From Takashimella koratensis (lineage: Eukaryota > Basidiomycota > Tremellomycetes > Trichosporonales > Tetragoniomycetaceae): a stretch of 64,000 nt of DNA. Under the pieces are notes generated by a model, which made no database searches, had not been told where the DNA came from, and saw only the letters and a program-made list of their open reading frames with translations. The stretch lies in contig BCKT01000005.1 of the NCBI GenBank assembly GCA_003116875.1, positions 868,001 to 932,000 of the forward strand. The letters are read 5' to 3'. The translations under genes were made by a program, and so were the position numbers. Positions 39,147 through 64,000 of this stretch are shown in pieces; positions within the stretch are counted from its first letter, which is position 1; each line of letters begins with the position of its first letter.

Positions 39147-39823
39147 ATGTCCTCCACCACTCCCAGCCTGACAGCCGCTGCCATCTTCGATCTTGTCCTC
39201 CCCGGCGACACCATGTTCCGCGATCTCGGCATTTTTCACACGGATACCGGGATCGATTCGTTCCGCTTACGGAAAGCGCTGCGAAGCCTAGAAAACTGTC
39301 AGGTATGGCGCCTGAGGACGCCTGAGGTGGTCCGAGCGGTCCCAAAGTACCTGGGATGCCAAGAGGGGACCGAGCGGGGTGGCGTAGGCCAAGGCCACGG
39401 AGAACAATAAAGACCACTAGTAGGGGCGATGCAGCGCTGCGGCGCACGAGCCCGCAAGCGGCTGCGGCCGCGGAGAACGACGGGGATGCATGAACGACGC
39501 GCAAGCGGTCGAGGCCGATCGGGTGCATTTAAATAGCAGTCTGTAGCGTCGAGAGATGAATCCCCAACCCGTTGTAATCTAACACAACGGATTTGAGCTG
39601 TTTCCCAGAAAGATGTCGAGTACTTGACAAATACGTGGGGGACCAAATATTCAACGACAACTACACATTCGTGATGGGCAACCTTGAGGGAAGCAATTGG
39701 GAATACTTCCATTAAAATGCCATTGCCTCTCTTGAACTGACGTCTGAAGAGGAAAAAGCGGACTGGGCGAGAGGCAAGTCCACAAACCGTCTCGCAGAGG
39801 GTGACCATCAGACTGTGCCATAG
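39147..39823 (+). pseudogene. Unrecognised gene interrupted by a solo LTR and by an in-frame stop
   Basis: The 5' part (39147-39296) encodes a plausible 50-residue start (IFDLVLPGDTMFRDLGIFHT; SFRLRKALRSLEN). It is cut at 39297 by an LTR running to 39584. After the LTR an open frame resumes (CRVLDKYVGDQIFNDNYTFV; GNLEGSNWEYFH), meets TAA at 39713-39715, and continues in the same frame (IASLELTSEEEKADWARGKS) to TAG at 39821-39823. The two sides together read like one broken protein. No domain is recognised and no similarity to family A or B is evident. Whether the TAA is the natural end or a second lesion cannot be decided. Confidence 0.55.
39297..39584 (-). mobile_element. Solo LTR (copy 1)
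   Basis: Read on the - strand it begins TGTTAGATTACAACGGG at 39584 and ends ATACCTGACA at 39297. It is closely similar over its whole length to the LTR at 60825-61119 in the opposite orientation. A TATA-like TATTTAAATG lies near its 5' end. The flanking pentamers (AAAAC and CAACG) do not match, so a target duplication is absent or has decayed. No retrotransposon internal region adjoins it. Confidence 0.8.
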
Positions 39824-44904: not shown

Positions 44905-47900
44905 CTACGTGTGGACCCAGTTACCCAATCCCTCTGCCCACGCCGCGAGCCCCTGGATCCCTGCGTCCCTCAACGCCGCTCGTTTCGGAACAACCAACAC
45001 CTCTGCCCCACCTTCAACCACGACCTCATCCTTGTGAGCTTCATCGACCACCGCGCTCTTGTTGGTCTTCGGGACATGGACGCCCAACCCCGGTCCGCCC
45101 AGGCTAGTCAGGTGCGGCTCGAACCCGAGGTTGGTCAGTGCGTCGACGAGCGAGACAAGGGAGGACGAAGGGAAGTCGTCAGGGATAAGAGTGACGGCGC
45201 AACCGCCTCCGCCGGCACCAGTGAGTTTCGTGGCCAGGTTGAAGGGGGAAGCGGCAGTCGCGGAGACGATCATCTCGAGAGATGGATGAGAGACGCCGAG
45301 CGTTACCAGGTGCGCGTGGTTCTCACGGATAAGCGCCTGCAGAGGTTACGTTTGTCAGCGAGAGTTTCCGAAAGAAGGACAAAATGAGACTTGTTCGGAG
45401 AGACAAAGTCAGAGTCAACTCACTTCGAGACGAGAAACGAGAGCTTGGCGGTCTGTAGCCTCTCCACCGAGGAGTTTTGCAGCCTCGTCCGAGATTGCTT
45501 GAATTGAGTCGAGGACCGGGTCAACGACTTCCGGCTTGGCGAGGCGCAAAGCGCTCACACCAGCGACGAGTGACTTGGTGTCCCGGGGTACGAGGGTGTT
45601 GGTCAACAACAATCGAATAGATGAAAACCTGGTAAAGTATCCGTATCAGCAAGTTGATTTAGAGTATCCCACAACTTACCCGTGCAAGCCCTGGAGGCCA
45701 CCCTTCTTCCCTCCAATAGCGCGAGTGAAGGCCACCGCCCCGCCTCGGACAGAGACGGCATTATCGATCCCGCTCGGGTTCCCGTGAATCACTTTCTCAG
45801 CCAAGAACGCCCACCCGTCAACGAGGTCGGTCTCGGCGCCCGAGAAGCGCGCGGGCTCCTTGTCGCTGCTCGAAGAAGGGACGGCGATACGCTGGTAAGC
45901 GAGGAGAATGGACGAGGCGACGCAGGACGAGAAAGCGGCAGAGGAGCCGAGACCTGCGCTGATAGGGAGATTTGCAGAGACGGTCAAAGTGGCTCCGAGG
46001 CTGTGACATGTGTCAGTTGAGCTTCCTACGTCTGGAGAAAAAAACAACTCACGCGTTCGCCTTAGAACCAGCGATCAGCATGTAAAGGTACAAGAAAGCG
46101 ATACCCGCAGCGGCTGCTTTAGCAGTCGGGAGCTGAACAATCTCCTCGAGAGCAGCAAAGAGCGCCGGGTCAAGCTCCTTGTCTGCCTGAGCCTGATGCT
46201 CGGCGTGGACGGGGAGGAGACCCCAAGGGAGCTTGTCAATAGCCCACTCGAGGTCGAGGCCGAGGTCTGGAGCGTCGAGGCCGACAAGCCCGTCAGAGCG
46301 GGGGGAGAGGACACCGAAGCATCGAAGGTTGACGCTGGTCGCGATGGCGGTCTAAAGACACTTAATATCAGTCTCAAAACCGAACCTTCCTAAATGATAT
46401 TCACTCACCACACCGTGGACGACTGCGTGCTCGCCAAAGAGGATGACCTTGCCCGGGGCGGAGACCACGATATCATCCTCGATGGTCTTGTGGCTCGTGG
46501 CCGATTTGCTAGCGGAACCGAGAGCGAGACCCTTCTCGACCCCGGCAGCGAGGGCGTCAACGGTCCCCGGGCGGCGAAAAATCCGAGCGCGCTCGAGGAT
46601 CCAAGCCTCCGAGTCTTGGCCGTATAGCTGCTCGAGCTTGGGCGCGGACAGGGGTTGGGAGGTAAGGTCGGGGACGATAGCGCCTGCAGAGGCGAGAGCG
46701 TGCTCGAGGTCGTCGATAAGGTCACGGGGGTCTTCGATACCCACACACAGGCGGATCAGGTTCTCGGGGAGACCACGCTCGGCGCGGACGGCGGCGGAAA
46801 TGGACGCGTGCCTGCGCAAGGTTAATGATAAGTTAAAACAAGTAGGCAATGGGTTCAAGGATAAACCAAAGGGTTGAATGAGGAACTCACGACATGAGAC
46901 AAGGCATGCTGATGAGAGAGTTGACAGCCCCGAAGGAGACACTGATGCCCCACAACCTTGCGCCTCCGACAATACGCTCACTCAACGCCTTGTCGCCAGT
47001 AACGAAACTAAGGACAGCACCTGCCCCTGTCGCCTGTCGGTAGTGGACGTCTCGCTTGGGGTGCGACTTGAGACCCGGGTAATGAACGAGGAAGCCGAGA
47101 GCGTGGAGGTATGTCGCGACGAGTTGAGTGGTGGCCATCTGCCTGTCCATGCGGATAGAGAGCGTTTTGAGACCCCTGAGGAGGAGGAACGAGTCAAACG
47201 GCGCGAGTCCCGGTCCCGTGGCGTTGATCAACCATGCAATCGATTTGCAGATCTCAGGGTTCGCGACGGCAATGATACCGGCCATAAGATCGTGGTGACC
47301 AGAGAGGTACTTGGTCCCGGAGTCGTAGACGATATCGGCACCGCACTCGAGAGGGCGCTGGAGGTAGGGAGACATCATGGTGTTGTCGACAACAATGATG
47401 GCGTCAGGAGCAGCGGCCTTGACAGCAGCGGAGATCTCGGCAATGTCGGCAATCTTTAACAATGGGTTGGTAGGAGATTCAAGGAGGACCATCTTGACTC
47501 TGGAGAAGGTGTCAGCACGATTCTCGATCTTTTTGTTCGTGGTCTGAAGAAATGGAGTAAGGAAGAAGGGACGACTCACTTGTTGCCCTCGCCGAGGTGG
47601 GGGAGAACACACTCGACACGGGTCGTGTCAACGTGTCGAACGTCCACGCCGCCGTGGCTGCTGACGTAGGTGAGAAGTCGGTTGGTACCGCCGTACAGAT
47701 CGTCACCGGCCAACACGGTCTCGCCTGGTTTGACGAGTCGAAGGATGACATCGAGACAGGTCATGCCGGTGGACAATGCAAAAGCTTGGGTTGCGCCGTA
47801 CAGTCTGGCGAGGTGGGATTCTACCAACGTTAGCAAGGCTGTTCTCAGTCACTGTCATGTGAAGATAATCTTTGATATGTTTGTCTCTCTGGTTCGTGTG

Positions 47901-48763: not shown

Positions 48764-51476
48764 ATGTACTCCACCACCCTCCGAACATCTCTTCGCGCGT
48801 CTCGGGCTTGGTCGTCCTTGGCCACAACCTCTCGACACAACCTCTCCCCCTCCCCCTTCCCTTCCTCTAGCCGATACCTCGTCATCCGAGACTTCTTCGC
48901 TCGCCAAGCATCCACCACCTCTTTCCCACCTGTATCACAATTACCCGTCCGACCCCGGATCCCTGGGAACACGTTTGCAAGAGCACGTTTCAACTCCTCC
49001 GAACCGACTTCACAATCCTCGCAAAAATGCCCAGACTGCGATCGAGTCACACAAACCCCGTCTCCGAAAACCTCCCCATCTGCTTCCCCACCACCTCCCC
49101 CACCGGCTACTCCCGGGAAACGCGACCTTCCGCTCCATGTCCAGGACTACATCCCATTTATTCGGAGATTGATACGGAGGTCGTCCTCCTTGGCAGCAGC
49201 AACCAATCTCAATCGGAGACCCAGTAAAGATGAACTCCTAGCTGCTGCGGAGAGCTGGTGGCAACGGTTCCGGATCAGAGTCAAGTGGTTTACGATTCGT
49301 GGATGGAGGAGGTTCAATATGGACGATATGAGTGCTTTCCTCAGCTGGTTCTTGGTTGGAAATAGTGAGTGCACGTTCGACTTTGTAAACGTCAAACTTG
49401 CTGACATTGTTCTTGGTCAGCCTTGTGGATTGTCATTGGAACGTGAGTATGGAGCGGCCATCCTGATCTGCTGAGTACACTTCATCGCTGACAATTTATC
49501 AGAACCACCTTTGTCTCTGCCGTGTTTGCCACCCTCAACTCGCTCTCGTTGCAGGAATACGTCGCCCGCTGGATCTCAGACTACCTGACTTCTGAGACTG
49601 GGGTCACCGTGATGTAAGTTCTCCCCTCCTTCTTGTTCCTCTCGACCGGTTCTTACGATCTGCAGCTTCGAGTCCGCCATTGTCCCTCGATGGGGCGCGT
49701 CCACCATCAGTTTCCGTAATGTATACATATCCCGCCGACCTCGAGACGCTCGAGACGAAGAAGACACCGGAACCGACCCTAAAGCCCGTCGATTCCAACC
49801 AAAAGCATCGACGGCAACCCCTCCCGCGCCTGTGCCGTTCCTCTCTTCGTCGCTCGAGCCTGACACGTACCTCAATGCCCCGCGAGCCCGGGAGGGCGAG
49901 AATTACACCATGTTTGATGTGAATCTCGAAGAGGTCGAGGTGACGCTCAGCTTTATGCGTTGGCTTGATGGGAAAGGTTTGGTCAAAGATGCCAAAGTCA
50001 AGGGTGTTCGCGGTGTGATCGGTGCGTATTTATCTTTTCCTCAATGTCTGCATTACCCCTTGACGTGATGCTGATACTTTTACGATCTTTAGACCGCCGC
50101 TCTGTCTGGTGGGACCAAACGAAACGCCTAGTCCCTGCCGAATTCCGACACGCCACCCGCCCCGGAGACTTTGAGCTCGAGTCCTTCCAAGTCGAGGATT
50201 TTCTCGTCACCGTCTACCAGCCCGGCGGCCAACGTCCATACAACGTCTCAATCTTCAATGCCGCGCTGGGACCGTTGCGTAAACGATGGTTGTTCTACGA
50301 TATCATCAGTGCAGAAGGAATGACGGGACAGTTTGATAATTGTTTGTTCAGTTTGCATATGCCCCAGAAATTGAGCAAGTCGGCCGAGAGCGAGAGTATG
50401 GTTAAGCGGATGGTAAGTTGGGTCGCGGCGATCTGGCTTCGAGAAAAGCTTTCGGTAGCTGATGATCATCTCACCAGGCCCGACTCCGGATCGACGGACT
50501 TCCCATCGAACACGTACAGTATGCGACGGGTCACACAGGTCCTATCTCATGGATCACCGCTGGCAAACTCGATGCTGTCCTGGATATCAAATTCCCTCCT
50601 CATCCCGATGACGAAGTGGATATTAAAGCGATCTTTGAAGAAATCGGTCGCAAGGTCGCTACTATCACCCAACACGGTACTCACCCAGACCACGACATCG
50701 ACCCCTCCTCTCCTACTTCAGAAGCCGTGACGATCAGCACGAACGATCTCGCTCGGGCTCAGATCAACGATACCATCGCAGCGACGGAAGCGTCTCAAGC
50801 TCGGATGTTACCTGGCCAACACAGGCTAGCACGGCCTCCCCTCACCCCGCCACAACATGGACAAGACGCAGGCGGGGAAGAAGAAGAAGCTAGGGAAGTC
50901 ACAATCGATATAGACTTGAGGTTTAGGGATTTGAGAGCAGCAGTTCCAGTGTTTACGGCAGATTTGAGCGTGACGAATAATGCGTTGATCAGGCCAATCG
51001 TGGCTTTTATCAAGTGAGTTTGAGTTTGGCAATAAGAAACCAGCAACTGTGTCGAGCGTTGCAAATGTCGTTAGCGGTATTGTGTAAACGTTACTGATCT
51101 ACGTTATTAGTGCGAATCGGACACTAGTCCCGATTCACTGCAGAGTCGCCGCCGACCTCGCCGAGTTTGACGGATCCTGGACAGTACGTTCCTTTCCCTC
51201 CACCTCTCCACAACTCGCCTCGTGACCTCTACCTTCAATTGAGTCAGATATGCTTGGACTAACTCGATCGTGCAGCTCTTTGAAACCGGTCTCATGTCTT
51301 CCATCTCTAACCAAGTCTACGCCGCCCTAGCTCACCACGTCTCCTCCGAAGCTGCCAACTCGAAACGGATTCGACAAGTTAGCGTATGGGGTATTCAACG
51401 TAGTGCCGAGGTCCTCATCCATACACTCAAGACCGTGGTTGATCCGATTCATGCCGCGGTTCCAGCTGCCGTTTGA
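48764..51476 (+). CDS. Mdm31/Mdm32-family mitochondrial inner-membrane protein
   Basis: Eight exons (48764-49364, 49421-49442, 49503-49613, 49666-50021, 50093-50412, 50478-51013, 51111-51183, 51276-51476) sum to 2220 nt, 739 residues. Mdm31 and Mdm32 are inner-membrane proteins required for normal mitochondrial shape, mtDNA inheritance and phospholipid balance. The N-terminus is Arg/Ser-rich and lacks acidic residues (MYSTTLRTSLRASRAWSSLA), as in a mitochondrial presequence. Family stretches are HVQDYIPFIRRLIRRSS, the FTIRGWRRFNMDDMSAFLSW region with a membrane segment (FLVGNTLWIVIGTTTFVSAVF), IFESAIVPRWGASTISFRNV, YTMFDVNLEEVEVTLSF, and WWDQTKRLVPAEFRHATRPG. Exon 2 is only 22 nt. The exact paralogue (Mdm31 or Mdm32) is not resolved; many fungi have only one or two. 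Confidence 0.87.
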
Positions 51477-51779
51477 GTCTGAAACGATCTGCATACAACA
51501 TATTTGGTGGTTTTTTTTTATCTAGTATTATAGTATTTCGGGATTGGTCTTGATTCACCCTTCTACGGTTTTACGACGAGTATGACGCTTTCACACCCAA
51601 ACAATTAGTAGTTTGTCTGTACATGGTACCCATTTGGCCGCCGCTCATATTCACATGAATGCATGACACTAGCGATGATTTGTCGCGGGACTGGGTGAGG
51701 GCTTAGATGAAAGATCAAAAGTCGCTCAGAAGACGACGCAGGGCAGAGTGCAGGAAGCACGTGGTAAACAATCCCGTGA

Positions 51780-52588
51780 CTAAGATTCCAAGTCCCATTC
51801 CTCAATCCGTGACTGAACATCTTTGGATGGATCGAGACATTGATGATTGTCAATAGACAGTATAATCGCGGAAGTTGAATTGTATAACGATCCCCTTTCG
51901 CGTTCCAACTTCCCTTCGGGACAGACGTCGACGGCGCCCCTATGCCGAAGAATGATGCGACTGAATCTAATACTGTTCCCGCCGGGTTCTTGGATGTGAA
52001 CTGCTGCTTAATGATCTTACTTGAAGCATCAAGGCAGGCTCGGTAAACTTTTTCAAGTTTCTGCTTGGTCCAGTTGCCCTTCGAAGTGACTCCAGCCTGG
52101 AAAAGAATACTTTTTTCCACGACCTGTGCAAGTGCTTCGAGCGTTTCCGACAAATAACTTTTGGGCATACAAAAACACTTTGGGCAACCCTCAAAATGTT
52201 TCAGAAGATCTGTGATCTCTTGTCCATCTTGGCTGTTCCTTGACTTGATCATGTTAGATTGCAAAAATAGATCGGTAAGGTGAAGTCTCGGCGACGGATC
52301 CGTTACCATGGTCATCTTCATGGTATGCAAGAAAAGATTAGCATCACGTTCAAGCTGCGCAGGAATTTTGATCTGACTCGACTTGTATTCTTTCCAAGCC
52401 GTTTCTCGATCGGCCTCGCTGGCCTTTGCCGCTTCGACCCAAAGATCCAGTCTGTTGACACCGAGATCGACAGAGCCCTCAAACATGTTCGAGTTTCCCG
52501 GTTTCGACGTTTCCTCTACATAGGTATCCCATCCAGAGACCCCAAAGTTGATCAATCCGGTATAACAGTCGGACTTCCTAGGGTGCAT
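51780..52588 (-). pseudogene. Block B member 1, frameshifted near its 3' end
   Basis: First copy of the block B tandem family. From the ATG at 52588 (MHPRKSDCYTGLINFGVS) the protein has the family landmarks: RLHLTDLFL strand, CPKCFCMPKSYLSETLEALA helix, NWTKQKLEKVYRACLDASSK helix, and KGSWNAKGDRYTIQLPR. At about 51865-51875 the frame must shift by one to recover the expected ILSIDNHQ (compare LTLSVDNLH); that frame then ends at TAG, 51780-51782. Without the shift it reads on to 51605 through non-family sequence. It may be a pseudogene with one indel, or a sequencing error. A TATA-like box (TGTATAAGG on the - strand) is at about 52725, some 140 bp upstream of the ATG. Function is unknown. Confidence 0.6.
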
Positions 52589-53470
52589 TCGGTTTGTCTT
52601 GTGGCTCAAAGATACTAAAGTCGTAAAATGTCTATTGGATAAGCAAGTTTACTCGGTACTCTTGAAAAGTCGATGTTGTAAACTTGAGGGCAAGAAAGAA
52701 AAGAGTTTGCGCTTTACAACAGGCCTTATACATCATTCTTTGATGGCAAGGCAGTGCATGCGGGAGTAATCAGACCAATTTCATTGCGAGTGTAAGTTGA
52801 AGGCGTCGGCTGCGGACTGACCCGGGGCCCGGGGTCTAAAGGGAGGAGCCGAGTGAGATGCTTTACCTTTGGCGGTTGCCAACAAATCCCGTAGAGTGGT
52901 TTGCTTCCGTAGCTTACTGTACGCTCACTCGGGCACTAAATGTACACGGCGCTGAAGGCTCTATTCCTTTACTCTCGGCCGTTGCATAAAACTCCCGTCG
53001 ACTGCTAGCCGCTGCTCCTTGCTGGTGCGCAGTGCATTCGGATACAATTGACGTTGCTCTTGTGGTCTGAAAAGTGAGTATCCTTTGCTGACTCGGGACC
53101 AAAAGCCCTCGGAATCATTCAGCCGAAGGCCACTTGGTGAACGGAGTCTCTCCTTTTTCTTCGGGAGTATATCGCAGTACACAAACCACCGGGTATGGTT
53201 GGGCTTCGTAGCTTGGTTACGTCGGTGAGGCTTTGGCAGTGTAGAGTGAACTATCGCTGGATTAGATCCAGGGAGGCGAAGTAAAGTAGGCAGCATCAAT
53301 GCATGAAAACAGCAACGAGAACGCAACTGGGACAGAGTCGGGTTCCCAAAGGGAACGGAGAGCTTCAATCGGAGGTGAGGTGCAGCATGTCGCAAAAGAC
53401 AGGGAAACACGGTAACTCCAACGATCCAGTCAATATCCCTTTAGCCAATTTGTGACGCGAAATTACGAGT
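52589..53470. promoter_or_regulatory. Intergenic region between block B members 1 and 2, with promoter modules
   Basis: About 880 bp. It holds two degenerate copies of the TCCTTT module: TATTCCTTTACTCTCGGCC followed by GTTGCATAAAACTCCCG (52961-53000) and AACGGAGTCTCTCCTTTTTC (53140-53160). They belong to the promoter of member 1. Confidence 0.6.
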
Positions 53471-54240
53471 CTAAATGCTGTTAGAGAGATTGTGACCAGT
53501 GTCAACAGAAAGTGTCAAGGCGGGTAGATGGATTGTATAGCAATTCCCATCCGCGTTCCACGTCCCCATAGGAGTCGACGTCAACGCTTTCGTCATTGCC
53601 GAAATCATCGAGGCGGTAACTTCAGTCGTTGGCGTTTGTTTCCTGGATTCTGGATCTTTGCTCAATTCACCAGACATGATCTCTACAGATGTCAAATAAG
53701 AGTCGTAAATCGCATTCCAACTTTTCCCAGTCCAGTCAGAGACTGTTGAGACTTCATGGTCGACCAGGATCCTATCCTTGAGGTGAGTAGCAAGTGACTC
53801 GAGCAAGATCGCTGAAAGTGATTTCGGCATGCAAAAGCACTTTGGGTATCCCTCAGAGTGAGATTCCATCACGTTCCTTCCTGATTCCCCAATCTTGACG
53901 GGGGCCAAGTTGCCGAGACTGTACTCCACGAACATATCGGTCAAGTGAAAGGTCGGCGGGTTGGGCCCGTCTGCAGGGATTGCTTCCAGTTCACGGTAAA
54001 ACCCAGTGAGAACATCGGCGCTAGGTGTGGGGTGCAGACGGTCGTCCTGGTATTGCCGAAGAGAATCCTCAGAGCACCCTCGTTTCTGGATGCGGCTTCC
54101 TTCCAGAGATACTGCTGGCCGGGAGTCATTTCCCACTTGATCGAAGGGATGATCGACTGGTGCGTCGTTTCATCTTCCCTGAGTTGAGAAGATCTGTTGG
54201 ACCCAGTGTAGGTCTTCAGTCTGTTCAACAGCTTCATCAT
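53471..54240 (-). pseudogene. Block B member 2, frameshift in the N-terminal part
   Basis: The 3' reading frame (53471 to about 54050) carries all family landmarks: FHLTDMFVEYSLG, GYPKCFCMPKSLSAILLESL, SDWTGKSWNAIYDSYLTSV and MGTWNADGNCYTIHLPALTL. The expected N-terminus (MMKLLNRLKTYTG...QQYLWKEAASRNEGAL; compare QVLWVKATGADEYDRE in member 3) lies in another frame starting at ATG 54240. I tested the plausible GT-AG pairs around 54050-54090; none joins the two frames, so a one-base indel is likely. A TATA-like TATAGAGAG sits at about 54380, 140 bp before the ATG. It may be a pseudogene or carry an assembly error. Confidence 0.6.
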
Positions 54241-54843
54241 CTTTGAAAGTCCGTGCTGCGATTCGAGAGTTGGACAGAGGTAAAGTATTCGAAAATGTGT
54301 AGTTGAGGTGGTTCAAAATGCTAAAAGGTTGTTACTTTGCCAGTGCAAAAGTGGGGCAGCTCATCCAATAGCAACCTCTCTATATCAGTCTTTGACAACA
54401 ACGCCGAGCACAAAAGAGTATCCGGACGTTGTCAGGCGACTCCGAGACGAGAAAGGGATCCTCCTTTACTGTTCCGGGACCAAAAGCACTCGGAGTCTTT
54501 CAGTCGGTCGCAATCTGGTCAAAGGAAATCGCTCCTTTGCGTCTGGCTTTTGCGTAAACTCATGGTTATCTGGCTACTTTGTCTCCATAGCTTGCTGATG
54601 GAAATGATGCTCCAGCACAGTACTGCAATTCAGAACCACAGGTGTTCACTAGAGCGGGAAGGAGGGGTCATGAATGCATCACAATGTCAATGATAACAGG
54701 CGAGACGGGGTGGCCAGTATTGAAGGTGAGAATGCAGCAGACCCAGCTGTAAACAGGAAGCCTAAGGTACGAGGAGGGAGCGACAGACCGTATTGCTGAA
54801 TTGGAGATAGACTCGTGGTTGGTCTCGTTCCATGATCAGATCA
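54241..54843. promoter_or_regulatory. Promoter of block B member 2, two palindromic modules
   Basis: Two modules: GAAAGGGATCCTCCTTTACT (54451-54470) and AAAGGAAATCGCTCCTTTGC (54521-54540). Between them is GGGACCAAAAGCACTCGGAG. Downstream are TTTTGCGTAAACTCAT and ATAGCTTGC, equivalents of sequences in the same order at the other copies. Confidence 0.7.
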
Positions 54844-55566
54844 CTAGTGATCGACAGTTCTCATGCTGATGCTGTGGAGGTTGTCGATGGAGAGTGTGAT
54901 GAGGGGAAGATGGATGGTATAACAATTTTCTTCGGTGTTCCACCTGCCTCTGGCGCAAGTTTCCGAAGTCTTCGTCGGAGCCTGCTTGCAATGTGCGACA
55001 GCTATAGTATGTACCGTCCCACCGTACTCGTCGATGACTTTCTCCCAAATCTCTCCACAGAGATCGGGTGCTGTCGAGACGCCATGCTTAACACAGATTT
55101 CCTCCAACTTTATCGCAGCCGTGTCAAGAATGTCCGACAAGAGGGTCTTGGGCATGCAGAAGCTCTTTGGGTATCCGTCATAGTGTTCACCCATAGCAGA
55201 TTCCTTACCTTCTGGTGACGTAAAGCGGCCGATGCTGTACTTGACAAATAAATTCGTCAAGTGGAATTTAGGGGTGACCCCCCATTCCGCCGGACGAGCG
55301 TCCAAGTCCCTCGAAGTTTCAATCGCAAAATCGTAGCTATTAGATAGAACTTGACCCCTCGCCCAATCCGACCGACAAAATATCAAAGAATGCTCACGAT
55401 CGTATTCGTCGGCGCCGGTCGCCTTCACCCAAAGAACCTGATCTTCGAGAGACAACGTGCAGCGTTCAATTGCGGTCGAATCCTGCTGCCTTTCGTTGCT
55501 CTGAGGCAGCGCGTACGTGCTCCTCTGAGTGCTTACAAGCTGCCACCGGGGAGGGTTCTTCGTCAT
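54844..55566 (-). CDS. Block B member 3, intact unrecognised protein
   Basis: Single-exon gene, 240 residues, starting MTKNPPRWQLVSTQRSTYAL at 55566. That start is shared in style with member 4 (MTKNSKRQ). Landmarks: helix LEDQVLWVKATGADEYDREH, DFAIETSRDL, strand KFHLTNLFVKYSIG, YPKSFCMPKTLLSDILDTAA, IWEKVIDEYGGTVHTIAVAH, and CARGRWNTEENCYTIHLPLI with TLSIDNLHSI closing the fold. No signal peptide, membrane segment or known domain. TGTATATAC (55713-55721) lies about 150 bp upstream of the ATG. I take this as one of the functional copies. The acid-free hydrophobic end of the CYTIHLP motif suggests a buried beta strand. Confidence 0.75.
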   Translation of the reverse strand: MTKNPPRWQLVSTQRSTYALPQSNERQQDSTAIERCTLSLEDQVLWVKATGADEYDREHSLIFCRSDWARGQVLSNSYDFAIETSRDLDARPAEWGVTPKFHLTNLFVKYSIGRFTSPEGKESAMGEHYDGYPKSFCMPKTLLSDILDTAAIKLEEICVKHGVSTAPDLCGEIWEKVIDEYGGTVHTIAVAHCKQAPTKTSETCARGRWNTEENCYTIHLPLITLSIDNLHSISMRTVDH

Positions 55567-56265
55567 GCTGTGCGTTTCTAGTTGTGTAATGACTCGACAA
55601 CTTGAATGACCTGATTGTCTGGGCAATTGATGTGAAGTGTGTGTCGGCTGAGCGAAAAGATAGTTGCTGCGGGTGGCAAAACGTCGGTTAACCTTCCTCA
55701 AAGGCGAGCTACTGTATATACTGCAATTTCTCCCAGTGGCAACGTTACAATAGTTCAGCATATCATTCGGTAGTATTCTCATTATGATCCCGATGTCTGA
55801 AAAGATGTCTCCTTTCTTCATTCGGGACCACAATACACGGAGCCTTTCCGCCAGCAGCAATGTAGAGAAAGGAGTTGCTCCTTTACTTCAGAGCGCTACA
55901 TACGGAGCAAAACGCCTTCGGGGTCATTCTGCCAACGAAAATGTCAAGAAAGGGATCCCTCTTTTACCTTCGACCGCTGCAAAACACTCCCGAGACTCGG
56001 ACTTTGTCTTCATCGCCTGCTTGTGAAAATAAAGCTATAGAGGAGTCCTGGGGATACTCCTAACCGCTAGAGGAATATCATAAAGGCAGTGAACCTGGTT
56101 GCATAGGACTATTGCTGACATGAAAAAAGATAACATGGTGGTCGGGATGGAAGGTGACAGGAGGCCACGCAATAGAACATGGGATACGTGACAGCAGGCA
56201 GGAGGGATTCGTGACTAGAATCATCCGAACAAAATATGCGATCGTACTCTCTGACTACGAGAGCC
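55567..56265. promoter_or_regulatory. Promoter of block B member 3, two palindromic modules
   Basis: Modules: AGAAAGGAGTTGCTCCTTTA (55865-55884) and AAGAAAGGGATCCCTCTTTT (55947-55966). The second is followed by CGACCGCTGCAAAACACTCC. Just before the first is CGGGACCACAATACACGGAG. Confidence 0.7.
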
Positions 56266-57024
56266 CTAGTGGTCGACGGATTCGACGTGGTGTAGAGTGT
56301 CGACCGAGAGCGTGACGGGCCCAAGGTGAATGGTGTAACAATCCATGTTGGTGTTCCACGTTCCCCTTGCCACCGGCGGCCTACTTCTAACCTGCTTCGT
56401 GAGATCGGAAAACTCACAGAGCGCAACAGACGTCTTGTATACGGCCAGCTCGTAATCGTCCACGACTCCCTTCCAGCTGTCCACTGTCCAACACGACGAG
56501 TCTCTGATCCCGTGCTTGACGAAAATATCTTGCTCCAGCTTAGTAGCGACGGTATCGAGCAAGACCGGCACAAGCGAGTTGGGCATGCAAAATGACTTTG
56601 GGTAACCTGGAGAATGATGATCCAGATGACTGCCCCCAGGGACCGCATCGCCTGTCTCGGGGAATATGCCAAGGCTGTACAGAACAAACATGTTGGTCAA
56701 GTGGAAGCTCGCACGCGAGTTCAACTCTGAGAGAGTTGCAGATAAGGTTCGGAACGGCTCGACTGAGATATTCAAACCGCGGTCGGGGCCTTTATATCCC
56801 TCAATTCTGCAGGCTGAAAGGGCTCGCTCACGGTAAAGATCGCTCGCTCGTGTCGCTTGGCGCCACAGCTCCATGTCCGAGGGATCCAGGTTTTTGACCT
56901 TCGAAATGACGATATTTTGTATCGAGCTCAAGGTTCCGGCTGGCAGGGTTTTGTCTGTCACCAACTGCGAGCTGTCATAGGGGATCAGCTGACCGCCACC
57001 TTGCCGCTTTGAGTTCTTTGTCAT
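56266..57024 (-). CDS. Block B member 4, intact unrecognised protein
   Basis: Single-exon gene, 252 residues (MTKNSKRQGGGQLIPYDSSQ). Landmarks in order: helix DMELWRQATRASDLYRERAL, VEPFRTLSATLSEL, strand SFHLTNMFVLYSLG, a Gly/His loop, GYPKSFCMPNSLVPVLLDTV, CWTVDSWKGVVDDYELAVYK, and ARGTWNTNMDCYTIHLGPVT with LSVDTLHHVESVDH. The last residues, SVDH, resemble TVDH of member 3. Intact open frame and all landmarks make it a good candidate for a working copy. A TATA-like CATATACATA (- strand) at about 57172-57182 is 150 bp before the ATG. No known domain. Confidence 0.75.
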   Translation of the reverse strand: MTKNSKRQGGGQLIPYDSSQLVTDKTLPAGTLSSIQNIVISKVKNLDPSDMELWRQATRASDLYRERALSACRIEGYKGPDRGLNISVEPFRTLSATLSELNSRASFHLTNMFVLYSLGIFPETGDAVPGGSHLDHHSPGYPKSFCMPNSLVPVLLDTVATKLEQDIFVKHGIRDSSCWTVDSWKGVVDDYELAVYKTSVALCEFSDLTKQVRSRPPVARGTWNTNMDCYTIHLGPVTLSVDTLHHVESVDH

Positions 57025-57570
57025 CGTGATGCCCTGGTAGTATGTACTTGGGATCTCGAAGATGTAGCAGACGTAAAGTATCAAGTGCTGGAGAGGCAAA
57101 GTCGTTGCCCAGAAGCTCAGATAGTGTACTGTAGGCTGGCAACAATCTTGGCCAGTTAGCCTTCACCGCACGGTATGTATATGTTGTCGGCTACAGCGGT
57201 TTTCGAGAGAAAGACGACAAGTTTGACTGCTCGGCTGTTTCCCAAGGTAGCCCCGAGGCTTGAAAGGTTGTTTCCTTTGCTGCTCCCGGACCATGGGTGC
57301 GCGGAGCCATTTGAACAACGGCAGTGAGATGAAAGGTTGCTCCTTTGTAACCGGGAGTTACACAAAAGCCCCGTTGTCTGATTTACCCCCGCAGCTTACT
57401 AGTAGTGATCTGAAATGGCGCTCGCCACCGTAGCGATACCAGGCGAGATCATCATGTCAGTTTATCCAGAGCAAAGGACACAGGAGGAGCTTGGGGAGTT
57501 GTGACATCACACGGCTGTCGTCAATTCCAACCACAACACTGGAGTCTGATTTGCGACAGCTGCATCATTT
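57025..57570. promoter_or_regulatory. Promoter of block B member 4, two palindromic modules
   Basis: Modules: TTGAAAGGTTGTTTCCTTTG (57260-57279) and ATGAAAGGTTGCTCCTTTGT (57329-57348), 69 bp apart. GGACCATGGGTGCGCGGAGC lies between them and CCGGGAGTTACACAAAAGCC after the second. GATTTACCCCCGCAGCTTAC follows, as at other copies. Confidence 0.7.
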
Positions 57571-57571
57571 C

Positions 57572-57861
57572 TCGTCTACACAATGAGACATCACAATCCA
57601 GATCGGGGGAGGGGTAGAAAGAGAATGCATGGGAATCGACAGGAGAAGAAGCCAATTGCAAGGAAANNNNNNNNNNNNNNNNNNNNNNNNNNNNNNNNNN
57701 NNNNNNNNNNNNNNNNNNNNNNNNNNNNNNNNNNNNNNNNNNNNNNNNNNNNNNNNNNNNNNNNNNTCGTCTACACAATGAGACATCACAATCCAGATCG
57801 GGGGAGGGGTAGAAAGAGAATGCATGGGAATCGACAGGAGAAGAAGCCAATTGCAAGGAAA
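57572..57861. repeat. 100-N assembly gap flanked by an exact 95-bp direct repeat
   Basis: Positions 57667-57766 are N, exactly 100. The 95 bp before it (57572-57666) and the 95 bp after it (57767-57861) are identical, starting TCGTCTACACAATGAGACAT. This is the expected signature of two contig ends that overlap but were not merged. G18 (57863-57880) and G31 (57919-57949) follow at once and could have caused the break. Confidence 0.9.
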
Positions 57862-57862
57862 T

Positions 57863-57918
57863 GGGGGGGGGGGGGGGGGGAAAAAGAAAGAGAGGGAGAA
57901 GCGAGGGGAAAAAAGAAA

Positions 57919-57949
<31 letters not shown>
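57863..57949. repeat. Poly-G tracts (18 G and 31 G) in a purine-only stretch
   Basis: Homopolymers at 57863-57880 and 57919-57949, separated by A/G-rich DNA. They lie immediately 3' of block B member 5. The lengths may not be accurate given the adjacent gap. Confidence 0.85.
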
Positions 57950-57950
<1 letters not shown>

Positions 57951-57999
57951 ATATGCAAAGTTCAAGTCAGAGCCCATTGGTATGGTGTCAAAACGCCAA

Positions 58000-58926
58000 T
58001 TACCAACGCCAATTCTCAGGCTCGATAGATGTCGAACCATCATCATGTTCAACGTTGTCCACCGAAAGTGTCATGAGGGGGAGCCTAATTGTATAACAGG
58101 TGTGGCCGATGTTCCATGCTCCCCTAGCTCCCTGAGGAGTCGTGATTGTCATTGGTGCGTCGAACCTTGCGAATTGCTCCGACTCGGAGCGGTCTGTAGG
58201 CTTGGAAGTCATTATTTCTGCCGCCGCAGTGGCATGTGCAATTCGAGCGCATATGTTGGTAACAGACGTCCACTTCGCAGGAGTCCAATCAGACTCTTCA
58301 AGGATCCCAAGTTCGATCAGGACCCTCTCCACAACGAAGGCCATGGACTCAAGCAAGTGCGACAAATGATTTGAGGGCATGACAAAAGCTATTCGGCTTT
58401 CAGTGGTACTCAGATCAGAATTCGCGTGCGGGAACGGATCCGGTCTGAACTCCATCCTCTGAGGATCGAATCGTACCTGCAAGTCTGAGTGAATGTCGGT
58501 CTCTCTCCATTCCGTGCGAGTACCGATTCCAGACCTCGCGCACAAGTGGAAGAGGTGAACTTCTCGACCGGACTCGAATGACGACCTGTCAAGGGTTAAC
58601 TCAGTGACGACCGAGAAGTCCCTGTCTTGATTGAGGCTTTCCAATGCGTCTTGCTTGCAGTGTATCAAATACATTCACCGACCCCATTCGTCCGACATGA
58701 AGGACAGTTGTCGACGAGCAAAACCTCGGCGATGCTTGCGGTCATGATCTGGCAACATTGGTAACCTCTTCAATTCCGAGGTTGAAGCCAGAATGTCGGA
58801 AGGATGCACAGGGACAACACTGGTCTTTGTTGTGTTTTCTCCTTCGGTTTGTGCGGTAATCCGACGGCATGGCCACTCGCACAGTGTCTCAAGATGACGC
58901 ACGATTTGGGGGTCGCGTTCCGCCAT
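58000..58926 (-). CDS. Block B member 5, unrecognised protein with one 57-nt intron
   Basis: Exons 58679-58926 and 58000-58621, joined across a 57-nt GTGAAT...GACAG intron, give 870 nt and 289 residues. The unspliced frame has a TGA at 58675-58677, which the intron removes without changing frame. The spliced protein reads FMSDEWGR-DFSVVTELTLDR, matching YDFAIETSRDL in member 3. Landmarks: REVHLFHLCARSG, SRIAFVMPSNHLSHLLESMA, ESDWTPAKWTSVTNICARIA, and ARGAWNIGHTCYTIRLPLMT with LSVDNVEHDDG. It is more divergent than members 3 and 4 and starts MAERDPQIV. A TATA-like CATATTTAAGC (- strand) at about 59015-59023 is near 90 bp upstream of the ATG. Function is unknown. Confidence 0.7.
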
Positions 58927-59454
58927 CTTGAGGAGGATATCGGTAGTAATTGAGACTGGCAGACAAGAAAGCGGAAGTGGTCAATAGTGGGGGACAAGGT
59001 GTCGTCAGCGAGGCTTAAATATGTGAGTCGAGGAGTGATAGAGTGGGGAGCGCGGTCTCTACGTATAGGCCGAAGAGGCTCTTGAGCCAAGAGCAGATTG
59101 ACGTGGAGGCTACCTACGTACTCGGACCTGTTTTGCAGCCGAGAAGACCAGGGAGTCCTCCTTTACTGATCCACATGTAAGGAGAGAAAGATAGTGAAAG
59201 GATTCGCTCCTTTACCGTCGGCCGTTGCACTAAACCTCCGCATAGTGAAAGGAATCGCTCCTTTACCTTCGGCTGTTGCACTAAACCTCCGCTGACTGGT
59301 TTACCTCCATGGCTAAGCAAGTACATGGTGCTCGGGTAAGGTGGACATTACTCCCCACCTTTGCAGAATCGTCAAGGCAGGCGGCGTGAATGCATGACAC
59401 AACCAGCAAAACCTTAAAAACATGGCGTGGTATACAGTGACTTCAAAAGTGGTT
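58927..59454. promoter_or_regulatory. Promoter of block B member 5, with 51-bp tandem units
   Basis: Two near-identical adjacent 51-bp units (59191-59241 and 59242-59292), each ATAGTGAAAGGA[T/A]TCGCTCC then TTTACC[G/T]TCGGC[C/T]GTTGC and ACTAAACCTCCGC. A third partial module, GTCCTCCTTTACTGATCC, precedes them at 59153-59170. This is the clearest form of the block B promoter module. Confidence 0.8.
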
Positions 59455-60435
59455 TTAAAGGATTTCGGTGATGCGCTGAGCCAAGAGCGACACCGGATCG
59501 ACCGTCACCTGAGTCACTTCCTCCCCATCAACCACCACAGTCTCCTCAACAAGTCTGATACTATGCAAATTGTCAACAGACAGTGTAAGAAGGGGGAGAT
59601 GGATGGTGTAGCAATCTCCGAAGTCGTGCCATTCCCCCTTAGGAACCGAGGTAACGGACGTGTTTGTCACTGAGATCTGCGCTTGCGAGACCACCCCTTG
59701 CATTGATGACTGCCTAGTACACTGTGTACTCTTGGGGGCCTTGGACGTTTTAATTGCCACGCGATGGACGAGTTTACCATAGTCACTGGCGACAGCGTCT
59801 AACCTTTCTTTAGTCCAGTCATCTTGTGTCCGGACCCCACGTGTGGCAAGAATTTGGTCGACCCTGTCGGTGACAGAATCAACGACCGCTGACAGGAGCG
59901 TTTTAGGCATGCAGAACGTTTTGGGATTTTCCTCACCCTCAAGATCAGAGTTAGGATCAGAGTCATAACCAAAGTCCGAGTCCGAGTCCGATTCTCGTTC
60001 GTACCAGTCCTCATTGTCGCCGTGTCCGTAAGTAAGGAACATGTTGGTAAGGTGCAGCCTGGGCGGCGTTTCGTGCCTGTACCCGTACATCTGCTGATGC
60101 GTGAGAACCGCAAAGTCGCCGGCGTAAAGGCGACTCTATGAAATGCAATCACCAAGCGCCTTTTCTCGAGCGGTCTCATCCGCAGTTGCTGCCAAAGCCC
60201 ACTGAAGCTGGCGCCCGATGGGCAATTTTTCCCCAGCTGGTAGACCATTCCGGTTGGTGTTTGGAGCCGCAATAGTTCTCGGATGCGCGGCCAGCGACTC
60301 TGGAGCGTTCGCGTTTCCCCTGGTCATGAAGTTCTGCACGTCGCTCCAGTCCCCTCGTAGTTTCGGCTCCGCAAGCGCGTATTCGCGTGTTAACTTACTG
60401 TTCTCAGACGGTGGGTGGAAAAACTGCTCTGCCAT
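59455..60435 (-). pseudogene. Block B member 6, interrupted by one in-frame TAG
   Basis: One continuous frame from ATG 60435 (MAEQFFHPPSENSKLTREYA) to 59455, broken only by TAG at 60136-60138. Upstream of it: LPIGRQLQWALAATADETAR, the family N-terminal helix. Downstream: GDFAVLTHQQMYGYR, RLHLTNMFLTYGHG, KTFCMPKTLLSAVVDSVTDR, DDWTKERLDAVASDYGKLVH, and KGEWHDFGDCYTIHLPLLTL with SVDNLHSIRLVEE. I looked for an intron that would remove the TAG, as in member 5, and found no GT-AG pair of matching phase. It is either a recent pseudogene or a stop-codon sequencing error. An Asp/Ser/Glu-rich insert (about 59920-60000) is specific to this copy. Confidence 0.65.
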
Positions 60436-60824
60436 AGTAGCGCGATTGTTGATACTCTTGAGAGCTGGTCGACCTGAAATCAGAGAGTGAGGTTCGCTTG
60501 GGCAGTTTTGAGATGAGGTTATGAGTAAAACATGGGAAACTGGTTGACGTGGTATCTGGTAGAAAGGGGAGGTATGCTAGGTATTTCTGCACTTGGTGCG
60601 CCTGAGTAGCAGATTACAAGGGGCTTCTGCGCAGGTTGCGCTTTGAAAGGAAGCTGATTTCTGCGACCCATACACAAAACTTGGCAGGCTTGTAAAAGGG
60701 AGCTGAGACGTTGACCAACCGCTGTGTGATCGTGAAAGGATCGCTCCTTTTTCCTTTCAGCACTCACACCCCGCTTTGGGTAGGTGGGGAGAGAAAGGGA
60801 AAATGCAACGATGGTGATAACCCG
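60436..60824. promoter_or_regulatory. Promoter of block B member 6, one palindromic module
   Basis: The module CGTGAAAGGATCGCTCCTTT lies at 60731-60750, about 300 bp above the ATG. Its second copy and the TTGCACTAAACC arm are not evident, perhaps because the LTR inserted nearby. Confidence 0.55.
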
Positions 60825-61119
60825 TGTTAGGTTTCAACGGGTTGGGGATTCATCTCTCGACGCTACAGACTGCTATTTAATGCACCAGATCGGCCTCGAC
60901 CGCTTGCGCGTCGTTCATGCATCCCCGTCGTTCTCCGCGGCCGCAACCGCTCGTGGGCTCGTGCGCCGCAGCGCTGCATTGCCCTACTAGTGGCCTTATT
61001 GTTCTCCGTGGCCTCGGCCTACGCCACCCCGCTCGGTCCCCTCTCGTCATCCCAGGTACTTCGGGACCGCTCGGATCACCTTGGATCAACTCCGCAGTTC
61101 TCGGGTTTGATACCTGACA
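60825..61119 (+). mobile_element. Solo LTR (copy 2) with 5-bp target duplication
   Basis: Begins TGTTAGGTTTCAACGGGTTG and ends GATACCTGACA, with short inverted ends (TGTTAGG / CCTGACA). It is flanked by a perfect ACCCG duplication (60820-60824 and 61120-61124). A TATA-like TATTTAA is at 60874-60880. It is highly similar to the LTR at 39297-39584. TG...CA ends, 5-bp duplication and about 295 bp length fit an LTR retrotransposon; the superfamily cannot be told without the internal part. Confidence 0.88.
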
Positions 61120-61349
61120 ACCCGCCCGTCGAGCAGCTCACAAGAACTGCCAAGTATTCAAGCTCCGGCTTTCTGCGGGGCCGTGGGCAGGCGGGATTAA
61201 CACTGCGGCTATCGACCGCGGATGAGGAGTGGCTGGATAGCAACAGAATAGTAGAGTAATTTTGGCAGCAAACGGTCGCATAGAACCCCCATTGTACGAC
61301 AAAATACCAAGCACTACATAATCCGTCACAGATGAGGTTCCCCGGCTCG

Positions 61350-62110
61350 GCTCACGTTTTAGTAACAACACTTGTGTCTAGAGAAGACCCACCCCCCCTC
61401 GGAGGTTGTGATGCTGTGCAACTCGTCGCCCGAGACCACAAAAATCGCGGTCCTGATGGTATAGAAAGGAGAGCGCTCCACTCTCCCTTGGGCTTGTTGT
61501 TGGAAGCCGATTCACTCGTTGAAGAGGTCGCCGTACTCTCGCCCGTAAAGATTTCAGGTAGATCCCCTTTGAGCAGAGCTGTCGATGCTAGACGGAGCGT
61601 CTGGGCGTACTGATCCTTCACCGCGTACAATTCGATGCTCGTCCATTCAGAAACACTCGTGACGCCTGAGCAGTGACGATCTTCTGAAAGTTGTCAAGTG
61701 TTGATTCCAATACCTCGGCTACAATCGACTTGGGCAAGCAAAATTACCTCGATGAGATGCCGGGGTCGTTCGCCGTATCGATGCAGTGCTACATATCCGA
61801 GTTCTCGTATTCGGGATCCCAATACCGCTGGAGGGTATTCTGGTAGAGCAACAAACTTGTCGGTGACGTGGATCCTCGGTGGGGCTTCAGAGAAGTAGGA
61901 GAGTACGGTGGGATGAGGGTTTATGTCGATAGCGGATTCAAGTTCTCATGTTCAGCTACGGAAGGGCTTCAGCGCAGCTTCTCGACCAGTCGCATCAGCG
62001 GCTGACGCGTAGGAGCATTTCTTCAAAGCATCTCGCGATAGTTTGTCGAAAACAAGGACAACAACGGACTTTTCCTGAGAAGTCAGCATATGGGTCTTCC
62101 GCGGGGCTGT
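61350..62110 (-). pseudogene. Block B member 7, heavily degraded copy
   Basis: Family pieces occur in the right order on the - strand but in different frames: LKKCSYASAADATGREAALK (N-terminal helix, near 62010), APPRIHVTDKFVAL (near 61870), FCLPKSIVAEVLESTLDNFQ (near 61720), VSEWTSIELYAVKDQYAQTL (near 61640) and NNKPKGEWSALLSIPSG (near 61480). The CYTIHLP strand is no longer recognisable. At least two frameshifts and an in-frame stop separate these pieces. The LTR copy 2 lies just downstream. Confidence 0.65.
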
Positions 62111-62990
62111 ACTGGCCAGCTCTCACACTTCCGAATACCGAGTCCAAACAGCTCACGCTCTTCTTAGAAGGTTTAGCCAGTGTGATTCAATAGGAGGAGA
62201 TGAGGCGCTGAGTGCGAATACTTGAGACGAACGCCGGTAATAAGACGGACGGTAGCCTGCAATGTGGTGGTGCAGTCGGAAACGATTGGTAAGTAAACCT
62301 TGTGGATGGGGCAAAAACGAGAATTTGCCGTTGACTCTCCAGGCCTTCGGCATACTAAGATTCTCTCTGCACTGTAAAGGGAGACTTCTTTTGCCGTCCA
62401 TTTCCTCAGGGCTTTACAACTCTAGCAGGCTTTCTCCGGTGTACACTCGTTGATGGCGGTGAACCGGGATAGTCAGCGTTACAGAGTCCAGACCTCTCCT
62501 ATGTGAAAGGTCACCACTCTTTCGTGAGATAGAAATCTACTTCAATGGCGAGCCTAACATGGAGAGTCCCACTGCAGCATGCATGTACAAGTGGGTATGA
62601 CCTTGAATTGCGATCAAGCCGCAGCAGAAGCTCTACAAGCTCTGTGATTCACTCCTTCACTCTTTGTGGCAAACAGTCTCCCGAGATCAAATGACATAGA
62701 GCCACGTGAAATCTTTGTTCATCGAGAGCTGACAAGTCGTTCGGCTCAGAGCTCAGCGTGTGGATGACGAGCGACCAAGGCTTGTCCTGAATGGAGCCCT
62801 GAATGGAGTATCGAGTCTTCTTTTCATTCCATCGGGTGCGCGGTGATGCCTCAGACGGCGTGTCGTTGGCGGTGTGACCTTACTGGTCTGTGCTCGAAGA
62901 CACCTCTCCCTGAGCGATTGTGAAAATTTCGCTGCGGTGGAAAAACTCGTCGATGATGACTGACATGCACAAGAAGCTGAGTGGATCGAT
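62111..62990. other. Intergenic region with degraded family-like fragments
   Basis: On the - strand, around 62970-62870, LSFLCMSVIIDEFFHRSEIF recalls the FCMP helix. Around 62850-62770, RTRWNEKKTRYSIQGS recalls G-x-WN...CYTIHL. Weak TCCTTT-module-like sequences occur near 62372-62400 (AAAGGGAGACTTCTTTTGCC) and 62503. It may be the 3' part of the gene at 62991-63590, separated from it by a stop codon. Confidence 0.4.
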
Positions 62991-63590
62991 TCAGTTCGGT
63001 GACCACTTGAGCTGGATGGTATCGCTATCGCCGCTATGCTTGAGTGTCTCTTCACTGATGATCCGAAACGAGGTGGCTATCCAGGACGGGAAGAGCCGTC
63101 TAGGTACCGCGAGCCAAGTCACCTCGAGGACGTGAGTGTCTCCCAAGCTCTCGGAGTAGACTGGGGGCTTGAAGGTCGTTTCGTTGTCAGACACCCTCGT
63201 GGTGTCTTCGACTTGTCGTGGTTTGATGACACCATAGCAAAGGCAAGGGGCCGAAATCTGGTAGCCGAGTGAGTCATTCGAGATTGGGTCGAGAATGTAA
63301 CGAAAGGCACGGGCAAGTTGCTGCTTTCCGAGGGAAGCAGCAACTGATTGATACTCGGAGAGAGAACTCTCCCGCTCAGGTTCACTCGAGTCGGTTATGA
63401 TGCGCAATGCGGGGTCAAAAGTCCGTTTCTGAACTACTTTGAAGCGATGTAGAGTCTGTGCGGTAAACTCTCGTTCGTCGCGTATCGTAGGCGTCTTTGT
63501 AATGTGGCTGGCGGTCGGGCCGTCGTCCTCGGACCAAAATGCGAACCATTCAGGGTATGCTTCGGAATGAGACGCCGCGTTTTCGGACAT
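62991..63590 (-). CDS. Unrecognised protein, possible divergent block B member 8
   Basis: Open frame on the - strand; I take the ATG of MSENAASHSEAYPEWFAFWS (about 63590) as start, though an in-frame ATG 21 nt earlier is possible. About 199 residues end in TIQLKWSPN before TGA. The centre has a helix (LGKQQLARAFRYILDP) and strands (HVLEVTWLAVPRR; PSWIATSFRI). The same frame continues past the TGA into sequence resembling the FCMP helix of block B (LSFLCMSVIIDEFF), so the gene could be a block B copy truncated by a stop. No independent domain is seen. Confidence that it is a functional gene is low. Confidence 0.4.
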   Translation of the reverse strand: MSENAASHSEAYPEWFAFWSEDDGPTASHITKTPTIRDEREFTAQTLHRFKVVQKRTFDPALRIITDSSEPERESSLSEYQSVAASLGKQQLARAFRYILDPISNDSLGYQISAPCLCYGVIKPRQVEDTTRVSDNETTFKPPVYSESLGDTHVLEVTWLAVPRRLFPSWIATSFRIISEETLKHSGDSDTIQLKWSPN

Positions 63591-63611
63591 CGGGGGCAAG
63601 TTCAGCGGCAC

Positions 63612-64000
63612 GGGATGAGATTGTGGACGATGGGGTGTTTTTGGTCGGAGTGAAAAACCGCTATGGGTGAAGCGAATGGCGAGGTAACGGTGGATTCAGA
63701 AACAATTTGAGAATGTGGTGAAAGACAAACAGTAGAATTGGTATGGCCACCAGGTTATTCGTGGTGTTGTAGTAGGTGGTATGAGGTTTGGAGCAACAAC
63801 GCGAAGGCTCAGAGTGTCCTCCTTGATGATTGCGTAAGCTGCTAGGACAAATAATGGGTCTTTGCCGTTCTAGTTCATTCTAAGGCCCTCCATTGATTCT
63901 ATCATCATCATCTACTGGGAGAGGATGCGAACTGCCCTTTGAAGCTCGTCTGAGGCTTACGTTATCAGTAGATGCTCCATGTCCTTTTGCGCTGGGCGTG
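63612..64000. other. Right end of window, no gene seen
   Basis: About 390 bp with no supported coding region; it would be the upstream side of the gene at 62991-63590. Confidence 0.35.

Follow-up and report, generated by a model that had tools for sequence, protein, structure and literature searches.

A tandem array of six orphan genes with a palindromic upstream element in Takashimella koratensis

When related genes stand in tandem, some intact and some broken, does the mixture betray a family that is born and dies fast, or something older? The question is raised by a 64,000-nucleotide stretch of the genome of the basidiomycete Takashimella koratensis (contig C5:868001-932000 of a 25.1-Mb, 24-contig genome; hereafter the window). 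A first, sequence-only reading had seen there seven or eight copies of an undescribed gene family in active birth and death, and had taken this as a sign of fast turnover, as in effectors, allorecognition genes or meiotic drivers. We found that the family consists of six core reading frames (M1-M6) and one wreck (M7), all on the minus strand within 51605-62011. We also describe here a palindromic element that lies upstream of all six genes and is concentrated in the array. Our analysis leans towards an old, lineage-restricted and co-regulated family in tandem whose small proteins would be soluble and intracellular. It would be under the control of one dimeric regulator and would act non-catalytically, each copy having diverged for its own partners.

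The core is open in all six genes over 196-224 codons. The cores have in common, in the same order, the motifs HLT[ND][ML]F, FCMP, GxW and YTI...LSVDNL, except that M5 reads HLF and FVMP and that M1 has nothing past YTI, where it leaves the family frame and continues into an unrelated C-terminal tail. Ten columns (H, L, F, M, P, G, W, Y, T and I) are invariant in all six members. Local protein scores were 106-352 in the 15 pairs, as against 43-55 for the best of 100 shuffles each. The pieces of M7 lie in different frames; the three that were tested beat all 200 shuffles against five, four and three of the six members, respectively, and two of them match the hidden Markov model (HMM) of the family (E 8e-5 and 0.007). 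M3 and M4 have an unbroken frame from ATG to stop, and M1, M2, M5 and M6 are interrupted once each. The in-frame stops of M5 (TGA) and M6 (TAG) fall after the N-terminal helix and ahead of the HLT motif; inspection by eye revealed no GT-AG intron that would keep the frame and remove the M6 stop, no splice prediction having been run. A 206-amino-acid open reading frame (ORF) at 62994-63611 was considered as an eighth copy and rejected: it has no family-HMM match at E<=10 and never exceeds its 200 shuffles against the six members (in the best case, M1, 3.5% of the shuffles reach its score). The sequence-only reading was thus right about the tandem arrangement on one strand, the ordered motifs, the two intact single-exon genes and the wrecked copy. 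Its count of copies holds for the six cores and the wreck without the eighth, and the single lesions that it placed in three copies are present in four.

Core identity is 23-43% over the aligned length, the closest pair reaching 43%, and up to 46% over the best local stretch. The number of synonymous substitutions per site (dS) could not be computed for six of the 15 pairs and lies at 1.33-4.26 in the remaining nine, and fourfold degenerate sites agree in 140 of 383 comparisons; by these measures, synonymous sites between the cores are saturated. Nonsynonymous substitutions per site (dN) amount to 0.50-0.89 in all pairs and are fewer than synonymous ones in each of the nine pairs with a computable dS, and among the codon positions the second is the least and the third the most divergent in every one of the 15 pairs. 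Judged from these alignments, the family is old and under protein-level constraint across its copies; its tree is weakly supported (53-61%). No recent duplicate was found among the cores compared pairwise. Since identity is low, synonymous sites are saturated and recent duplicates are lacking, the claim of active birth is unsupported. Gene death is real, M7 being in pieces and four other copies interrupted. Intact and broken copies side by side in tandem therefore need not signify fast turnover, and the suggestion of effectors, allorecognition genes or drivers, which rested on it, loses its main support, though allorecognition and drivers keep the low probability discussed below.

The second line of evidence concerns the spacers. 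The palindrome AAAGGA-N3-6-TCCTTT, with at most one mismatch, occurs once or twice upstream of each of M1-M6, and the short pieces that repeat searches found to be common to the spacers contain it in near-perfect form. At this threshold all ten places in the window lie in the array; the remainder of the window, the region upstream of M7 and the 30 kb that follow downstream have none, and about 0.27 per 12 kb per strand would be expected from a first-order Markov background (largest count in 30 trials, 2). With up to three mismatches allowed, a fixed pattern has 10 matches at nine places, all within 52954-59266, where 100 shuffles gave a mean of 1.48 and a largest value of 7. Genome-wide, exact palindromes are present at 18 places, five in the array and 13 elsewhere (reversed control, 2), and at the density of those 13 the Poisson probability of at least five exact sites in 12 kb is about 8e-14. 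Two longer patterns match only in the array at 0-1 mismatch (one and three matches); with two mismatches 4 of 18 matches are in the array, and the reversed controls gave 4 and 12. Another fixed pattern has four exact matches, three in the array and one on contig C1. The distance to the ATG is 212-322 bp in five of the six genes, and the palindromes of a pair are spaced by 51-69 bp in four of the six (68-69 bp in M2-M4, and likewise in M1 when its weaker partner is counted).

Eight spacers were compared pairwise on the same strand at E<0.01. Eleven matching pieces were found among five of them, those before M1-M5, and nine of these overlap a strict or weak palindrome; the other two pair 52861-52914 with 59261-59314, with a half-site-like stretch only, and 54576-54611 with 56001-56036, just beside a module. 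No piece matched in the spacers that precede M6 and M7 or in the stretch that follows M1, and one of 60 control chunks matched, via a dispersed repeat. Outside the palindrome modules the spacers hardly align, and that the modules have been conserved next to saturated synonymous sites speaks for their function. When up to two mismatches are allowed, a further motif, TGTCATGCATTCATG, is found in the window only at four places, which lie past the family domain of four of the six genes; a third mismatch adds three more places.

Table 1. Family members, palindromes and 3' motifs of the array (window positions; palindrome distances are counted from the ATG, for M5 and M6 from that of the upstream ORF)
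Feature	Positions	Strand	Description
M1	51605..52609	-	open frame, first ATG 52588; family part 51878-52588
M2	53471..54240	-	open core 53471-54136; N-terminal conserved helix in another frame (ORF 53941-54240)
M3	54844..55566	-	uninterrupted from ATG 55566 to stop, 240 amino acids, intron not needed
M4	56266..57024	-	uninterrupted from ATG 57024 to stop, 252 amino acids, intron not needed
M5	58000..58926	-	core ORF 58000-58674; same-frame upstream ORF 58675-58926; one TGA between
M6	59455..60435	-	core ORF 59455-60090; same-frame upstream ORF 60136-60435; one TAG between
M7	61355..62011	-	wreck; family pieces in different frames: 61621-61743, 61355-61693, about 61700-62011
Palindrome, M1	53140..53156		about 550 bp before ATG; weaker partner begins 53071, 69 bp away
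Palindrome pair, M2	54452-54467, 54521-54538		212 and 281 bp before ATG
Palindrome pair, M3	55800-55815, 55868-55884		234 and 302 bp before ATG; weaker third at 55949
Palindrome pair, M4	57263-57278, 57332-57346		239 and 308 bp before ATG
Palindrome pair, M5	59197-59213, 59248-59264		271 and 322 bp before ATG of upstream ORF; weaker third at 59148
Palindrome, M6	60735-60750		300 bp before ATG of upstream ORF
TGTCATGCATTCATG, M1	51654..51668	-	0 mismatches; within extended M1 frame, beyond family domain end
TGTCATGCATTCATG, M2	53294..53308	-	2 mismatches, downstream of gene
TGTCATGCATTCATG, M3	54669..54683	-	1 mismatch, downstream of gene
TGTCATGCATTCATG, M6	59385..59399	-	1 mismatch, downstream of gene

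Are there relatives elsewhere? A search of the genome itself with M1, M4, M5 and M6 (M2 and M3 were not used) gave matches confined to the array, apart from one place at the chance level of E=1.04; such a search scores only its best candidates and may miss distant members. At the sensitivity used, the family is confined to one locus. In Pfam, the eight sequences submitted (M1-M6, the 62994-63611 ORF and an M7 piece) yielded one weak match, of M4 to Tyr_Deacylase (E=0.22), and no HET, NACHT or NB-ARC domain. Nothing meaningful was found in NCBIfam (best E 0.13) or PHROGs (best E 0.022), and no relative among PDB sequences with M4 as the query (best E 0.37) or in a PDB profile search (best SKP1, E=0.098, profile positions 98-159). 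One search of a 5.8-billion-protein collection of unknown fungal coverage gave no scored match among 2928 candidates. Two short patterns from a four-row alignment, used for viral and prokaryotic (bacterial and archaeal) relatives, gave 29 and 23 pattern matches, none of them confirmed. The predicted model is a single alpha/beta domain (predicted local distance difference test score, pLDDT, 75; predicted template modelling score, pTM, 0.75). Fold searches returned nothing significant, a result that does not exclude families absent from the lists searched; of known folds the nucleotidyltransferase-like ones, RsfS and its mitochondrial relative in particular, may come closest. As the HMM, fold and library searches gave no significant match, the description of the family as undescribed stands as far as these tools reach. 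By orphan we mean orphan to the libraries searched, among which fungal proteomes as such did not figure.

What, then, could the array be for? Orphan tandem clusters are typical of effector genes in fungi, and secreted, host-directed effectors would be an obvious proposal; we consider it very improbable. Localisation was judged by hydropathy only, no signal-peptide predictor being used, and unrecognised first exons could escape such a judgement; within these limits, neither M1, M3 and M4 nor the upstream ORFs that belong to M2, M5 and M6 have a hydrophobic segment at the N-terminus. Over the first 38 residues, the highest nine-residue mean is 1.09 in M1, 1.07 in M4, 0.27 in M3 and at most 0.77 in those upstream ORFs, and the M5 core, if started at its own ATG, reaches 1.46. 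Over 19 residues, for which 1.6 is the usual border of a membrane helix, the highest mean is 0.97-1.16 in five members. Intracellular conflict genes, whether for allorecognition, antiviral or spore-killer-like, would have copies that diversify and die; the tandem arrangement, the restriction to one lineage, the high divergence of the paralogues and the interrupted and dead members would fit. Against them stand the lack of recent copies, the single locus, an excess of dS over dN in all nine computable pairs and the failure to find HET, NACHT or any other Pfam domain, and we hold them to be unlikely. With secretion signals, recent copies and conflict-type domains all missing, we prefer to effectors and drivers a family that acts in the cytosol or the nucleus and whose partners have diverged.

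The state of the copies also invites the thought that the array is a relic, once co-regulated, in which only M3 and M4 still work and the others are recent pseudogenes. The single interruptions in M1, M2, M5 and M6, the wreck M7 and the fact that M3 and M4 alone run uninterrupted from ATG to stop all fit; yet every one of the six cores is open, the M2 core has the top family-HMM score (318.9 bits, which shows closeness to the family average only, all six being in the model), and all six genes have kept their palindromes, none being found upstream of M7. We regard a relic as rather unlikely. The palindromes themselves might be short repeats, mobile or prone to recombination, by which the tandem duplication was driven, an explanation of the element only and compatible with the other readings. 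A 51-nucleotide tandem duplication upstream of M5 (59191-59292, 94% identical), with one exact palindrome per copy, and the presence of two or three palindromes in several spacers speak for it. The similar distances to the ATG and the 68-69 bp spacing in M2-M4 despite saturated synonymous sites speak against it, as do the single occurrence of the M5 module as DNA in the genome and the rarity of exact palindromes elsewhere, and such an origin seems quite improbable.

We therefore return to an old, co-regulated intracellular family. Six small, soluble, intracellular proteins of one alpha/beta domain each would be made from units that each possess a promoter and a palindromic upstream element of their own. 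When a palindrome recurs at much the same distance in front of each gene, a dimeric activator is usually at work, and for this reason the array most likely forms one regulon, induced as a whole; a single dimeric transcription factor most likely binds the palindromes. The residues invariant in all six members are mainly structural, hence the proteins would probably act via protein-protein or ligand contacts rather than catalysis, the paralogues having presumably diverged for different partners. A bolder proposal, which we think improbable, is that of a protein family with an as yet unrecognised fold, kept at one dedicated locus under its own paired-palindrome switch, whose paralogues serve inside the cell as a recognition or assembly set, each copy having its own specificity. 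Tandem families of orphan genes are common among fungi; this one comes with a candidate regulatory element that is defined by sequence and restricted to the locus. If the palindrome is regulatory, it offers a bait for the transcription factor and, through it, for the condition and the process in which the family acts.

Several observations weigh against this reading. One interruption in each of four of the six genes means that part of the array may be dying, and the constraint seen here spans an old divergence and does not prove that the interrupted copies are still translated. The palindrome of M1 lies farther out, at about 550 bp, and the spacer before M6 has only the palindrome in common with the others, without any BLAST piece; M4 and M5 are without TGTCATGCATTCATG at the threshold used. 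The element need not be exclusive to the array, given the 13 exact palindromes elsewhere, where simple arithmetic (4 x 25.1 million / 4^12) leads one to expect 6. A 19-residue stretch of the M5 core, at a hydropathy of 1.63, is at the membrane-helix border.

Six of the 13 palindromes outside the array, at five places, were inspected, and no family member was found nearby (best HMM E=1.5). Two exact palindromes outside the array lie 2.3 kb apart on another contig (C8:1231358 and C8:1233654), with no family member nearby; this pair is possibly a second target of the same regulator. The array palindrome resembles a pheromone-response half-site. The HMG-box pheromone motif, ACAAAGGGA, is absent from 51001-64000, and neither it nor the array palindrome is present in 28 kb around three STE3-like places. 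STE3-like receptor exons were observed at one place on C2 and two on C15, above the curated cut-off and absent from 14 control genomes. The same 28 kb contain 14 AAAGGAG half-sites, three of them within about 140 bp on C15. A pheromone response is not supported by these sequences; with half-sites near the receptors, we put it aside without regarding it as disproved.

The array is internal to contig C5 (1.75 Mb). Its left neighbours include an MDM31/32-like ORF (49969-50727; MDM31/32 match E 9e-40) and a Cys/Met-metabolism enzyme (46890-47627); on the right, reading of the sequence suggests what is presumably a MutS-like ORF and, beyond it, kinase-like and WD-repeat-like ORFs. The MDM31/32 match and the STE3-like receptors bear out the fungal character of the genome; a fungal transcription-factor match falls below its cut-off. 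Between M4 and M5 lie a 100-N assembly gap (57667-57766), with an exact 95-nucleotide duplicate on its flanks (57572-57861), and a 31-base G run (57919-57949). The gap with its duplicate is likely to be an assembly artefact, and together with the G run it makes small assembly errors possible nearby. Between M6 and M7 there is a dispersed repeat of about 250 bp (60823-61081), with a second window copy at about 39325-39585 and at least 41 genome matches including itself, mostly 91-98% identical (best 40 of 90 candidates scored); it is possibly a mobile element or the remnant of one.

Two known kinds of system invite comparison. The clustered orphan and effector families of plant-associated fungi are, like this array, tandem, lineage-restricted, free of Pfam domains and made up of diverged copies; the array differs from them in that its proteins are without a secretion signal by hydropathy. 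The wtf meiotic drivers of fission yeast resemble it as a multi-copy family with pseudogenes, and wtf genes carry shared regulatory sites. A recently expanding driver family of the wtf type would have recent, near-identical and dispersed copies, whereas the array is a single locus whose copies are old and constrained, none of them near-identical. Classical effectors and recently expanding drivers both fit the array poorly.

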